64,000 nt of DNA, from positions 29,257,916 through 29,321,915 of the forward strand of contig NC_052489.1 of NCBI RefSeq assembly GCF_009730915.1. Direction: 5' to 3'. Under the pieces are notes generated by a model, which had not been told where the DNA came from, made no database searches, and saw nothing but the letters and a program-made list of their open reading frames with translations. Of this stretch, positions 37,601 to 64,000 are shown piece after piece. The DNA comes from Dioscorea cayenensis subsp. rotundata. Taxonomy: Eukaryota; Streptophyta; Magnoliopsida; Dioscoreales; Dioscoreaceae. A program made the translations under genes and the position numbers. Within the stretch, counting starts at the first letter, position 1. Each line of letters opens with the position of its first letter.

Positions 37601-40326
37601 TTTGTGGTGAACTCTTGTCCACCTCATTTGTTCTTTTTATTTTTTTAATATTAAATCTATTTTTTAAATATTCTGATTCAAACTGCTTTCGATCATATCA
37701 TCGATGCTATTCTATTGAATTAATACTAAATAATATACAACATTTTTTTTTTCTTATTTTCCGGTGAAGGTTTCACTCATGTAATAAATTCTTGTTTCAA
37801 TAATTGAATATATTTTTTTTCTTATCAGAACTTTAAGTGAGACAAGAATGACAATATTAATCACATAAATTTATCATTAAAAATTATTATATATATTTAT
37901 GATATATTGACAAATTAATATCCTCTGCTTCTTCCGCCAAAGTTCTATGTGTCTCTTTGCTCTTTCCTCCTAAATTCCAACTTAGATTGACTATATATGT
38001 TTCTTTGCTCTTTCTTCCTACACTCCAATTTAGATTGACTTTGTCTCTGTTGCTCTTTCCTCCGAAGATCCAATTTAGATTGACAATGTCTCTTTGCTCT
38101 TTCATGCTAAATTCCAATTAGATTGACAATGTCGGTGTGACAATCTCTCACAAGTACTAAATGAGATGTTTGGAAGCACCCATACCAATTTCTATATTGA
38201 TAAAACAATTAGACTTAGATGGACTACCTACCAATAAAATCCACTAAGAATATATAGATATATATATATATAAATTCATTAACAAAACTTTATAAAATAA
38301 AGAAACAAATTCAAGTTTAAAGTATTTTTTTAACCTTTATTATTACTAGTAGTGTTAATTATTATATAATCCTTTTTAATGTAATATTGTCATCTAATGC
38401 TTTTGATCTAATCATAAATATTTTTTGAAAGAGACGGAGGCTCTCTGATCACAAAAAAATATTGTACCATTTGATACAATTTGATGAAAAAGTACCCAAA
38501 ATATATTCCATCAATATGGAACCTCTTTTTGCCACTGCTTGTGGAAAACAACTGCCAACCAATACTTCCAGATGTTGTTCCTTTCTTTTCAAGATAAGCA
38601 CCCTGTCAAAACATTAACAAAAATAAATAAATAAATAAATAAATAAACACACAAACACACGCACACAAAAGCTTAAATCAAGAATCAATCCCTTCATTTT
38701 TCACTATAAAAACAACCAAAATGGAGAGCAAAGTAAAATTCACTAGCTAAAAGAACCAATGTCAATTAAGCAAGTATATTGTAATTAGAACACGAATTTA
38801 TGGAATTTCGAATAACCCTGGTCCCCTTCATTTTATTAATTTATCTATGAGATACTACAGAAATCAATGGGTATTTATTCAATAGTTATTATTTTTTTTT
38901 TTAAAGTGGATTGCACTTTAATATATATTTTTGAATTTTAATAAACTAAGGGGTTTTCCTTTTATTTTTTAGAATTATATATATATAAATAAATATTAAT
39001 TGTGCAAATTTTTTAAAATTGATGTTTTAGAGATATTGAATGATAGTCGTTAGAACATCATTTAATGATTATTATTTATATATAGATTTATATAAAATTA
39101 TTGTTATTTACTATACATAATTATTATTTAATCCTATTTAATACTATTTAATACTGTATATGAAATGATGGTTCCTGTTGAATATAAATTCAATGGTACT
39201 ATGGGACATCTAGGAACGCCTCTAAAAGACGTGCCTCCTCTCTGTATATCTATATATTATAATGTTAATTGGTTCATAAATTAAAATATCTAATAATAAG
39301 CATGTGAAATTAATACATCCAATGACCATGACATGATTGGCACATTAGCCTTGAGATCTTCCTTTATATCCCACATCAATTTCCTTTCATTTTATGTTTG
39401 TGATGTGTGCTTTGGATTATGCCTCACTGCCACATCCTGTGATTGTAACTTGATTGTACCTCAATGAAAGAAAATTCATTACTTTATTTGACTATTGATT
39501 ATTTCTCTTCAATAACCAATTTTCAATTGAAAGTAATATGAAGTATAGTATTTGAATTTACTGTAATATAAATAATGTAAAAAGATTTTTTATGTTATAT
39601 ATCTTTAATAATATTAATTTTTTGTTGGTATAAACTAAATAATAAATATTTCTCATGTCTTATTGTTATTATTCATTTTTCTTACTATTTTTTCTAATAG
39701 AATATAATAAATATGCCGGTCATCTTTTAATTATTCATAAAACAGTAATAATTATTCATTGGATATTGATTCTCTTTTTGCAAGATACATGTACCAAATT
39801 CATTAAACAATGGCCATATTATTTAGAAAGAAAGTTCCAATCATGTAATAAAATAACCATAATTATTTAAAATTTAAAAAATTATAATTTTTTTGGTATT
39901 TGATCAAACCTAAGACCCTAAATACATATATTGGAGGTGTTTTACTCATAGATTGGAGATTATTAAAGAGAATACTTACTATCATATATAATAGGATATA
40001 ACTAACAAAGAATTTCATTTTTTTTAATGAATAAATAATAACGTCAAAAAAAAGTATGATAGATAAAAATATGTAAACAATTATTTGATGTGTTTTATTT
40101 CATTAGAATATATATTTATCAAAGGGATATAATCAAAATATCAAATGCTCGTATCATGCTATCACCAAGAATTTTTCCCTATGGATTAATTTTATCTTTA
40201 CTATGATTGGTATTCATGTTTCGACCCTACTTTGTATTTTATCCACCTTATACCATTTGTTAGTAAAATTCCACGTGTCATGTACATCTTACCCTCTTCC
40301 GTCTTTTAACAACTAACGCATGCCAA

Positions 40327-59229: not shown

Positions 59230-60780
59230 CCACTCAAGATGATAGTTTTGGTCTTTTACTTTCCCAACCCTGGTAAAATATAATTCTATTTAAAAGAAAT
59301 AAATAAAAAATACTTCATAGTGTTTTTAGAAAATTTATTTTATTTACAAACAAATGACCATCGGAATTTATACAAAATGAGAAAATAATGTTATTAAATT
59401 TACGAATGCACTCTACATTAACACACGTCTCTAACTATTAATTTTAAATAATGGTGTTTATTATATAGTGTCAAAAAAAAATCAATAAATAATGATATAT
59501 TTTGATATTTAAAAAATATTTATGACAATATCATTTCAAGATTTATTAAAAATAAAAAATTTTATAAAAAATTCTAAAGATCAGAGTGGAAAAAAAAATA
59601 TATTTTTAACTTCTATTGGTATTGTGGTTTATTTTAATTTTTTTTTTTTCAATTATGTTCATGTTATTGTTTTTCTCCCTAGCATGTGAAATTAGTTTTT
59701 TTTTTCTCTCTCGCCTAATTTTATATTAGAGATTATGAAAACATTTCTCCTCTGGTTTTTTTATTCTTCCTTCCATGTACTTTCTTGATTTTTGAAAACC
59801 AAAAATTATTTATTTTAAATTTTCAAGAAATTAGAAATAGCTTTTTTTCTTGTAATTTTAGGAACTGAACAATGAATTATAAAGTCAATAAGATGAATTG
59901 TCCTATATAATTCTAGGTATTCCGCGTTAATTAGTTCCATTCCAACAATTGATTTTCAAGACTTGGGTATTAAGAAAAGAGGAACAAAAAGTACAGAATA
60001 AAGTTGGGAAAAATAGAAAAATAGTGCTTTCTGAGAAAGACCAGGCCAAACCCAATTGCATGAACACAACAACCAATGGGGAGAAAAAGAAAAGTGGAAG
60101 TGGGTTTCTGTGTGTTTCGCATGAAAATTGGGACAATTAGCAACTTTGATTATTTTTATTTATTTATTTAAATATATATCTCTAATTCAATGTGGAATTA
60201 TTTAGTGGTGAGCATAACTTTTCATTTGGATTATAACTCAATCTGTTAGAGATTTCCTTTTCAGTTTAATAGTGTATAATTTTGTCACTTTCATTCAAGA
60301 CGAAGTTCATCAGCTAATACCACTTTTTATATGGGAATTTAAAATATTTTTACTGGTGTTATGATTATCACATGTTTTAAAAATATATATGTTTTTTTAA
60401 AAGTCAATAATTTAGGAGTGGAAAACATGATATATATTTTAATAATAGTCAAATGTAAGAGAATGAGGCTTATGTAATATGTTAAGCATGGATAACTAAC
60501 TGAAGACTATTTCTGAATATTTGGGTAAGAATGAAATTTGTTATCGCTGTCATCTAGTCCAAATTTTTAAGCAACGCGACTATTTTATTTAAAAATAAAA
60601 GACGGAAGATATTGTTTATGTAAAAAAATTGCATGTACAAATTCAAATCAAATAATTTTTTTTTTTTTTTAAAAATTACATACAGTTAAATCATAATCGA
60701 ATTAGGACAACATGTGGTCAAAACAAATAAATTTCACTATATTTGGATGTATTCAAGATAAGTATAGAAGATATTTTCGA
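59230..60780. other. AT-rich intergenic DNA; one less AT-rich patch
   Basis: No gene is accepted. A patch at about 59930-60140 is less AT-rich and open in a 69-residue minus-strand frame, but it has no recognisable domain. The remainder is low-complexity AT sequence up to the start of the 52-bp array. Confidence 0.55.
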
Positions 60781-60799
60781 AATAATCTAAAAAAATTTA

Positions 60800-61979
60800 G
60801 AATCGAAGATCGACCGAGAGCACGTGATCTCGAGCGCGATCTAAAAATATCAAAAATCATAAGATCGACCCTTAGAGCACGGATCTCGAGTGCGATCTAA
60901 AAATGTTCAAATCATAAGATTAGCCTAGAGTACAGATCTCGAGGCGATCTAAAATATTCAAATCATAAGATCAGCTGAGAGCACAGATCTCGAGGCGATC
61001 TAAAATATTCAAATCATAAGATCACCGAGAGCACGGATCTCGGGGTGATCTAAAAAAATATCCAAATCATAAGTTCACTCTAGAGCACGGATCCTCGAGG
61101 CGATCTAAAAATATTCAAATCATAAGATCGACCTAGAGCACGATCTCAAGGCGATCTAAAATATTCAAATCATAATATCAGCCTAGAGCACAGATCTCGA
61201 GGCGATCTAAAATATTTAATTCATAAGATTAGCTGAGAGCACAGATCTCGAGGTGATCTAAAATATCCAAATCATAAGTTCAACTCTAGAGCACGGATCT
61301 CGAGGCGATCTAAAAATATTCAAATCATAAGATCGACCTAGAGCACGCATCTCAGGCGATCTAAAAATATTCAAATCATAATATCGACTCTAGAGCACGG
61401 ATCTCAGGGCTGATCTAAAATATTCAATTCATAAGATCGACCCCTAGAGCACGGATCTCAGGCGATCTAAAAATATTCAAATCATAAGATCGACCTAGAG
61501 CACGGATCTCAAGCGATCTAAAAATATTCAAATCATAAGATCAACCGAGAGCACGGATCTCGAGGGCGATCTAAAAATATCCAAATTATAAGATCGCCTA
61601 GAGCACAGATCTCAAGGCGATCTAAAACATTCAAATCACAAGATCAGCCGAGAGCACAGATCTCGAGGCAATCTAAAATATCCAAATTATAAGATCAGCC
61701 GAGAGCACAGATCTCAAGGCGATCTAAAATATCCAAATTATAAGATCAGCTTAGAGCACAGATCTCAGGCGGTCTAAAAATATTTAAATCACAAGATCAC
61801 CGAGAGCACGGATCTCGAGGCGATCTAAAAATATTTAAATCATAAGATCAACCGAGAGCACGGATCTCGAGGGCGGTCTAAAAATATTTAAATCGCAAGA
61901 TCAGCCCGGAGCACGGATCTCGATCGCGATCTAAAAACATTTAAATCACAAGATCGACCGAGAGCACATATCTCGAGGC
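60800..61979. repeat. Tandem array of about 23 units, 52-bp period, each with an imperfect palindrome
   Basis: The GAGCAC word recurs 23 times from about 60817 to 61963 (one copy reads GAGTAC), on average every 52 bases. A typical unit is AAGATCGACCTAGAGCACGG, then ATCTCGAGGCGATCT, then AAAAATATTCAAATCAT. Within it AGATCG(A)CCTAGAG and CTCGAGGCGATCT are complementary except for one bulged A and one mismatch, around a 7-base loop CACGGAT. Units vary by small indels and substitutions, so the array is not freshly homogenised. CTCGAG and several GATC sites recur. The array is non-coding: it has no long open frame. It may belong to a larger mobile element that continues to the right. Confidence 0.93.
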
Positions 61980-62240
61980 AAAAATATAAATTACAAAAAT
62001 TGCCCTTGAGACCATATCTCCAGGCAAAATGCAAATTACAAAATTACCCTTGAGAATTTATCTCGAGGCATAAATACAAATTACGAAAATGCCCTTGAAA
62101 ATACATATCTCGAGGCAATCTCAAATCTTAGGATAGCCCAAATACACATCCCGAGACAATCTTAAATTTCATGTAGCCAGAGAATGATCTTGTGGCAACG
62201 TGAGAAAATTCAATCTCGGGGCTCCTAAACACATATCTCG
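61980..62240. repeat. Degenerate right edge of the array with shorter period
   Basis: From about 61980 the unit shortens to about 45 bases and changes to AAATACAAATTAC(G)AAAA(T)TGCCCTTGAGA followed by ATATCTCGAGGCA. The ATCTCGAGGC core persists while the GATCT arms are lost. This is either an older part of the same array or a related array fused to it. Confidence 0.8.
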
Positions 62241-62577
62241 AGACGCATTGAATTTTATTAAATTTAGAAAAATTAATTAAAATTTTTAAAACTTGATTTT
62301 ATCTTCTTTTTGAAATTTTATAAATTAAATTTCAAAAAAATCAAAAATTTTTAAATTTATTTTTTTATCCTCTTTCTTTTGACTTGTTCCGAAGGGGTTA
62401 TGGGTTAAGATTCTACAGGAGGGGTTGGGATTGAGGATAAAGATAAAAAAATCTTTTAAAAGGAGGCGATCGGGAAAAGAGGAAAGGGGGGAGGAGGATC
62501 AAAAAAAAGAAAGGAGAAGAAAAAAAAAGAGGTTATCTTCTCTCCCATGTAAAAAAACCTCGACGCTCGTTGTCGCT

Positions 62578-62741
62578 ACCGCTGCTCATCACCATCGCTA
62601 GTTGTTCACCATCGGGCATGCTTGAGTGGCTGAGATAATGCCGCTAAGCATGCCGCTGTCGCTGCTTGTCGTCGTTGCCATTGTTCATCACCGGCATGCT
62701 TGATTGGTCGAAAATAATGCCGCCAAGTATGCCGCAAGGGG
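62578..62741. repeat. Two diverged direct copies of an 80-90 bp block
   Basis: Copies near 62578-62666 and 62667-62741 share GCTGCTCATCACC/GCTGCTTGTCGTC, TTCACCATCGGGCATGCTTG/TTCATCACCGGCATGCTTG and ATAATGCCGC(T/C)AAG(C/T)ATGCCGC. Divergence is clear, so the duplication is not recent. Confidence 0.75.
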
Positions 62742-63079
62742 AAGCCAAAAAATAATAATAAAAAAATATTTGAAGAAGAAAAAGAAAAAGAAAAAAAGAG
62801 GGGAAAAAAATCATGGGAAGAAAAAGAAAAGAAGAGAGGAAAAAAAGAAGGAGGAAGCTTGGGGGACCGGAGACCAGAAATTAAAGAAGAGAAGACTTGA
62901 AGAAGAAAAAAATTGAAGAAGAAGGAAAAAAAGAAAAAGGCAAGATGATGATCAAGGTCGAAAAGCCCCGATGGAATGGTGTTTGAACTAGATCATAAGG
63001 TGGCGGAGCAGTCCCTTATTCATCAAGGAAACAATCCAATCAAGCGCTGACCCGAGTGAATGCCATCCGGATCCCTAGC

Positions 63080-63185
63080 ATCAATGGCAAGATTCTCTCC
63101 ATAATTGTGAATTTCTCGCAGAAGCATACTCGAACTTGTTGATTTCAATGGCAAGGTTCTCTCCATGGTTGTGAATTTTTGAGCT
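63080..63185. repeat. Direct duplication, period about 66 bp
   Basis: TCAATGGCAAGATTCTCTCC with ATAATTGTGAATTTCTC near 63080 recurs as TCAATGGCAAGGTTCTCTCC with ATGGTTGTGAATTTTTG near 63147. The function is unknown. Confidence 0.75.
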
Positions 63186-64000
63186 TGCCGATGAATGTGT
63201 CTCATTTTCCAAGACCAATGCCATGGCTTCAAAAACTATGGAGGAGATGTCTAAATCAAGGAAACAATTGCTGCAACTGGTGTTCTACTAAAGTAAAGTA
63301 TGCTAAGAGTTCTCTTGGAAACATGGGAGGATCGATGATGTTGAGCTCTCATGGCGGAAGTATCCTGAAAAGCAACCTTTACTGATGAATGAAGAAAAGG
63401 TGTTGGGGCAGGCTATCTGTGCTGGCTAAGCCGATCGGGTTGCCAAGCGTATTCGAGCAGTTTCAAACTCATTAGATAAAAACCAAAAAAAGTACGTGCA
63501 CGCTCCTCGGTACGAATCATGTGCCTTGAAGGATACTGTCTTTCTCCACCAATTCTTGCATTTACATCACTAACTGAAATTAGGTGTGAAGGCAACGCCG
63601 AAGCGAGAAAAGAAAAACAAAAAGCAAAAAGAATGCATGCATGTGGTCCCTACACCGGTGATACGTTGTTACCCAAGCATGCTCTTCGATTGATACCGAA
63701 AGCTTAATGTTGTAAATAGTGTCCAGGGGGATAAACTAGGGTCAGAGTCAAATCGGGATAAATGAGAGCGAATTTTGGTGAGCTTTTCATACCAGCGATC
63801 CTCATATCAATGCATCTATGGGTTTCCATGCAAATGGTTTCATTCTTTAAACCACGACCATGTATGTCTGCCAGTGTGCCTGCCTATATAGAGCTCATCA
63901 TCGTCTTCATCTTCATCATCCAAACACTGAAAAGCATTGAAAAAAAATCAGGGCTGCTCTTGAGCTCAAAGAACAATTGGTCAAGCCCAAGCCATCGCCC

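Follow-up and report, generated by a model that had tools for sequence, protein, structure and literature searches.

The window (the whole 64,000-nucleotide stretch of yam DNA analysed here, which lies on C19 at 29257916-29321915) carries a long row of short repeats. The sequence-only reading had reported about 23 palindromic units in a row, and this is borne out by Tandem Repeats Finder, which returns 23.0 copies with a period of 51 bp (84% matches, score 1451) at 60785-61979. In each 51-bp unit, a 7-base loop is flanked by arms with about 12 bases apiece that can pair, and an AT-rich spacer completes the repeat; the unit folds as AGATC..CC(T/G)AGAG-loop-CTCGAGGCGATCT, a near-palindrome that is present in every unit. 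The regular spacing and the potential for hairpins, which that reading had also described, are real by both repeat finding and folding: folding energies ranged from -8.4 to -14.3 kcal/mol, with z scores between -1.5 and -4.6, for seven unit-length windows of 51-53 nt (the first window being out of register with the hairpin), as against a z of only -0.83 for the one 45-bp unit that was folded. The claim that the two arms are near-exact complements holds only in part, since the hairpins do fold with their 7-base loop, but most units carry a bulge in the stem plus a mid-stem mismatch (A opposite G or A). The 45-bp units that continue the array (Table 1) keep, by eye, an inner dyad, for example CCTTGAGA..TCTCGAGG. 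Elsewhere in the window, at 37945-38127, there is a separate tandem repeat of about four copies with a period of 45-48 bp, by eye unrelated to the array.

Table 1. Features at and around the palindromic array (positions in the window unless a locus is named)
Feature	Position	Strand	Basis
Target-site duplication GATAT, left flank	60608..60612	.	second copy after the 3' LTR, L010:4328-4332
5' LTR, starting TGTTTATG, about 5.93 kb	60613..64000, continuing beyond the window to L009:2540	+	self-comparison with the downstream stretch
LTR head (LTR edge) of a large family	60613..60784	+	393 first-look candidates, 40 scored, 40 matches
Array of palindromic units of about 51 bp, 23 units, head-to-tail, in the presumed U3	60785..61979	+	Tandem Repeats Finder and folding
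Lineage-switch zone within the array	61447..61603	+	sign change in similarity, with offsets
About 3.5 related 45-bp units, continuation of the array	61962..62118	+	Tandem Repeats Finder; sequence
Most conserved stretch adjoining the array, including 45-bp units	62013..62212	+	96-100% identity, window against seven same-body LTR copies
Putative TATA box CTATATAG	63884..63891	+	lies in a conserved 200-bp stretch; inference

The array sits within the 5' LTR of an LTR retroelement that is 16.8 kb long, with LTRs of about 5.9 kb and an interior of about 4.9 kb. A second copy of the array, 91% identical, lies 11 kb downstream, and further copies were found on many contigs when the 584-Mb assembly was searched with the window array (48 matches; 40 of 818 candidates scored). 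The 3' LTR extends from L009:7478 to L010:4327. Both LTRs have TG...CA ends, with CCACA or CCCACA closing the LTR, and a polypurine tract, AAAGGGGGCATT, lies immediately 5' of the 3' LTR; by eye, a similar tract is present in the C352 and C14 copies. The window element is an LTR retrotransposon by its paired LTRs, their TG...CA ends, the duplicated target site and the polypurine tract. Between its two LTRs, identity is 0.916 in the segment that covers head and array and 0.930 and 0.952 in the other two segments, so that the array end of the LTR is, if anything, less conserved than the rest.

Of 19 loci scanned for the 200-bp stretch around the putative TATA box, 15 matched, at 94-100% identity; they represent nine distinct LTR copies including the window, and one copy carries CCATATAG in place of CTATATAG. 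If this box at 63884 does mark the promoter, transcription would start about 2-3 kb downstream of the array, which would place the array in U3. Several copies share the putative core promoter at 63800-64000 without a difference over 197 bp, but it is only about 94.5% identical to that of the element's own 3' LTR (L010), and the two LTRs of an element on C2 differ in a similar way. These are two variants of the putative promoter, which possibly reflect gene conversion after insertion.

Position within the LTR is near-constant across the family. In all 48 LTR copies read, the core of the first unit lies 176-211 bp (in one copy 247 bp) from the 5' end of the LTR and on its strand, the LTR start of L062 being extrapolated from a partial edge match. 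Forty of these copies, including the window and the 3' LTR of its element, were picked regardless of the array by their match to the LTR edge (query, first 172 bases; 393 candidates, 40 scored, 40 matches), and the other eight were picked by a match to the array or to the LTR body. The arrays contain 3-24 units, with a median of 11; these counts are approximate, being made with a motif allowing up to three errors, and give 24 for the window against 23 with Tandem Repeats Finder. The distribution of the unit, for which the sequence-only reading had proposed a genome-wide search, is that of the LTR of one retroelement family.

Genome-wide, a search with the unit core, in which three positions were allowed two bases each, gave 657 occurrences (314 on the forward strand and 343 on the reverse; none for a reversed-pattern control), and the unit is therefore not local to the window. 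This abundance could also be expected of an independent satellite, or of a fold-back or MITE-derived tandem repeat, that had come to lie in an LTR by chance. The exact LTR-edge pattern occurs 104 times genome-wide, and on C1-C5 the exact 23-25-base edge was found at only 12 of the 53 core clusters listed; the lack of an exact edge at most clusters may be due to divergence of the edge. Taken from the side of the edge, unit cores follow 12 of the 14 exact edges among the places listed on C1-C5, with none on the wrong strand or side, and L038, one of the two remaining edges, has an array of diverged units. Against chance residence in an LTR, the array was present at all 40 of the scored edges that were picked regardless of it, the LTR edge was present at all eight loci picked by array or body, and no array exceeded 24 counted units among the 48 copies. 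With 3-24 units standing at the head of the LTR in every one of the 48 copies read, an independent repeat is disfavoured, and it is scarcely credible as an explanation.

The length of the array appears to be set from one insertion to the next. Unit counts for five LTR pairs were 24/24, 22/22, 9/11, 12/12 and 12/11, and a sixth pair (C14), counted later, gave 19/21. For the five pairs, the mean difference within an element was 0.6 units, compared with 6.9 on random re-pairing, and a difference as small was obtained in 104 of 10000 re-pairings. This is supportive, though not proof, of length changing between insertions, in replication, as related elements also share length.

Heads and bodies of the LTRs are combined crosswise, as tabulated for 13 of the 48 loci. 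The body type of the window was read in nine copies, of which four (the window, L002, L024 and L025) have the head H1 and five (L003, L005, L007, L062 and L063) have the head H2. Conversely, L026 has an H1 head, 95% identical to that of the window, on another body, which matches the window over about 180 bp at 77% but L027 over 913 bp at 90%. The compared heads stop where the array starts and the bodies start where it ends; the crossover between head and body therefore had to fall within the array. L053 (C17:16951000-16955000) is a further mosaic: its head is close to another group (96.6% identity to L057), its 45-bp zone is of the window type (94.5%), and its body matches that of the window at 83% over about 680 bp.

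The crossover can be followed within the array itself. Stretches of an array were compared with the five arrays that have an H2 head and the window body and with nine arrays from other bodies, the body types having been confirmed. In the window array, the difference in similarity to the two lineages changes sign once, at an offset of about 684, and the same offset is found in the 3' LTR of the element (L002). An element on C10 also has a single sign change, at about +150 (about unit 3), in both of its LTRs. Four control arrays have no switch, L003 and L005 being positive throughout and L026 and L008 negative throughout. A switch common to the two LTRs of an element most likely predates its insertion. 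The C19 and C10 switches may be two events, or one event followed by a loss of units. The switch was seen in these two elements only, and a preference of crossovers for the array over the rest of the LTR would be conjecture.

A variable base in the stem marks the two sides of the window switch: it is T in 10 of the 14 units to the left and G in 6 of the 9 to the right. The sequence-only reading had noticed units that keep partial pairing and left their meaning open; they fit two unit lineages joined in one array. T and G lineages lying on either side of a switch would also give linkage between the arms.

Hairpins in the RNA of the element could function in packaging, stability or translation or as a source of small RNA, and would then be kept by selection on pairing. 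If it lies in U3, the array would enter the genomic RNA by way of the 3' LTR, and as RNA its first 1000 bases fold more stably than shuffled sequence (z -7.7, 20 shuffles). However, a stem of about 12 interrupted pairs is short for Dicer-like processing, and no Rfam match at the gathering score was found in the scan of 60600-64000. The arms, moreover, change without regard to pairing. The 48 arrays contain 590 counted units; restriction to those of 46-58 bp whose borders were recognised left 443, of which 381 are distinct, duplicates being counted once. Over 14 column pairs of the stem (two of them alternatives for one base and one mostly mismatched), the 381 distinct units contain 4091 paired cells, where 4094.9 are expected if the arms vary independently, and 97 doubly changed paired cells, where 99.3 are expected; mean mutual information is 0.0084 for paired columns and 0.0088 for unpaired columns. 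The result for the window is equally flat: in 20 of its 23 units, 89.7% of positions pair as against 89.8% in shuffles, and the covariation score was reached by 207 of 500 shuffles, with 4 of the 12 pairs invariant and hence uninformative. The commonest change in the stem, T to G opposite A, breaks the pair in the structure tested, although an alternative register is available. The strongest link between columns (31 with 56) joins positions that are not partners in that structure, and the four combinations seen there are predicted to differ by at most 0.6 kcal/mol in the model hairpin.

One measure does lean slightly towards pairing. Units folded with their own right arm average -10.26 kcal/mol, compared with -10.08 kcal/mol when the arms are re-dealt, and none of 20 shuffles reaches the own-arm value. 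Among the 234 rows without indel differences the figures are -10.17 and -9.98 kcal/mol (reached by 8 of 300), and in an earlier set of units they were -9.65 and -9.14 kcal/mol (reached by 0 of 200); shuffling column by column gives -9.60 kcal/mol, 0.7 weaker than the own-arm hairpins. We read this own-arm advantage of 0.2-0.5 kcal/mol as linkage within two unit lineages, though weak selection on pairing is also possible. Selection on pairing as the main force is rejected by the independent variation of the arms, in the 381 units from 48 arrays and in the 20 window units alike, and the stem does not look maintained. A functional RNA is therefore a very improbable reason for the array, and the row of free-standing, pairing-selected hairpins that had been envisaged finds no support: the array lies in an LTR, and the compensatory changes looked for between its arms are no commoner than chance. 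Of the three findings that, according to the sequence-only reading, would together reduce the row to an ordinary element-borne minisatellite, two are thus borne out, namely arm changes indifferent to pairing and a distribution that follows one retroelement family.

The dyads might instead act at the level of DNA, as paired sites for host transcription factors that tune transcription of the element. The BII boxes of tobacco Tnt1, which may act in this way, are arranged in tandem. As described in PMC3316501, they are repeated sites in the promoter region of the LTR and bind host factors, said there to be induced in defence; the yam array is similar in its placement, but is far longer, and its dyads are putative sites only. 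In line with such a role, the array lies upstream of the conserved TATA-like site, and the inner dyad is, by eye, common to the 51-bp and 45-bp unit classes. Among copies with the same body, the zone of 45-bp units adjoining the array is also 96-100% conserved, compared with 84-97% for the flanks of this stretch and 74-97% for stretches of the array where units align, and 62013-62212 is a possible regulatory core. Within the 381 units, however, the arms are no more conserved (0.886) than the spacer (0.908) or the loop (0.909), the values with transitions set aside being 0.961, 0.960 and 0.983, and the number of units, which varies from 3 to 24, likewise counts against this role. A regulatory function for the dyads is thus a tentative proposal, rather less probable than its converse.

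The kind of element that carries the array is indicated by a relative. Nine of the 11 open frames of at least 75 aa in the interior of the window element were scanned, and none had a Pfam match near the cut-off; in these nine, gag-pol domains, including the RVT_1 and RVT_3 discussed below, are absent, and the copy is therefore probably non-autonomous. A copy on C14 has the same LTR head and array as the window, with heads 14.9 kb apart (at 14095802 and 14110682), and between them, on the strand of the element, RVT_1 (5.5e-18) followed by the RNase H-like RVT_3 (1.4e-14), two of the eight open pieces scanned having a match. The RVT_3 piece has its best PDB matches to 2ehg and 3aly (E 5.4e-12), which we take to be archaeal enzymes. 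An additional archaeal-type RNase H (aRH) is described as marking the Tat clade among plant Ty3/gypsy elements (PMC6317226). The window element thus has its LTR head and array, though not its LTR body, in common with a coding relative that may be of the Tat type within Ty3/gypsy.

Large retrotransposon derivatives (LARDs) have long LTRs and an interior of several kilobases without coding domains. The window element has these features, with 5.9-kb LTRs and a 4.9-kb interior in which no domain was recognised. Five LTR pairs with the window LTR body are spaced 10.0-11.1 kb apart, which suggests that the window-body elements form a structurally uniform, LARD-like group. The LTR head held in common with a coding relative is suggestive, but only suggestive, of the mobilisation in trans that would be of the LARD type. 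More generally, LTR heads on the same strand often pair at about 10.0-11.1 kb or about 14-15 kb (for instance on C12, C9, C14, C1121 and C3), with exceptions at 12.3 kb on C14 and 16.6 kb on C19.

Tandem repeats are known companions of such elements. Ogre and Retand, of the Tat lineage of Ty3/gypsy, are reported to have hypervariable tandem repeats and satellites derived from them (PMC7004042, PMC11963269), and like the yam element they carry short, family-specific arrays of variable length. In those elements, however, the arrays are described as lying between pol and the 3' LTR, whereas the yam array is inside the LTR and hence in both LTRs; the LTRs given in PMC11963269 are 315-1194 bp long, compared with about 5.9 kb here. 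The soybean minisatellites of Gmr9/GmOgre are likewise retrotransposon-associated and mostly element-borne (90% with Gmr9), but are placed between the coding region and the LTR and belong to five interleaved families (PMC3305785); a word search of the text available from that paper gave no occurrence of palindrom, hairpin, secondary structure or inverted repeat. Retrosat2 of rice resembles the yam element in having LTRs of over 3 kb with repeated motifs, but these are seven CTTTTT units in R, and the account consulted describes no palindromic array (PMC3485330). In the grasses, recombination between lineages of centromeric retrotransposons has given rise to new subgroups, some of them non-autonomous, much as is proposed here, although breakpoints within an LTR minisatellite do not figure in what was seen of that report (PMC4079200). 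Within the open-licence literature searched, as far as its text was available, no account was found of a palindromic array that lies in an LTR and contains lineage switches, nor any paper with the letters of the unit. What is known, then, is the presence of tandem repeats on Tat-type Ty3/gypsy elements, here placed inside the LTR; what is new is the crossing of LTR heads and bodies together with a lineage switch inside the array.

Taken together, the array is probably a minisatellite carried by a retrotransposon: in the presumed U3 of a family of plant LTR-retroelements it forms a module of variable size, and the window copy would be a non-autonomous member that has its head and array in common with a coding relative of putative Tat type. 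The repeats may have arisen, and may change in length, during reverse transcription, either by slippage or by strand transfer between co-packaged RNAs. The homology of the repeats between LTR lineages could then allow the transcriptase to jump from one lineage to the other, and with each such jump a head from one lineage would be joined to a body from the other. The palindrome would have been inherited from the founding unit; it may once have been a protein-binding site, and it may help the enzyme to pause. The crossovers are as compatible with recombination at the DNA level in the source lineage as with the reverse transcriptase.

It is also conceivable, though unlikely, that the palindromic array serves as a recombination ‘cassette’, a pause-prone homologous track set close to the LTR end, across which LTR bodies (with promoter, R and U5) are swapped while the end recognised by the integrase is kept. 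If this were true, new and differently regulated subfamilies would keep being mobilised by the same machinery. For the minisatellite reading preferred here, an apparently strange row of hairpins becomes readable as retrotransposon biology, with the array a record of crossovers between LTR lineages. The array also lends itself as a natural test case: tandem repeats in LTRs might be by-products, or they might be junctions for the swapping of promoters between mobile elements.
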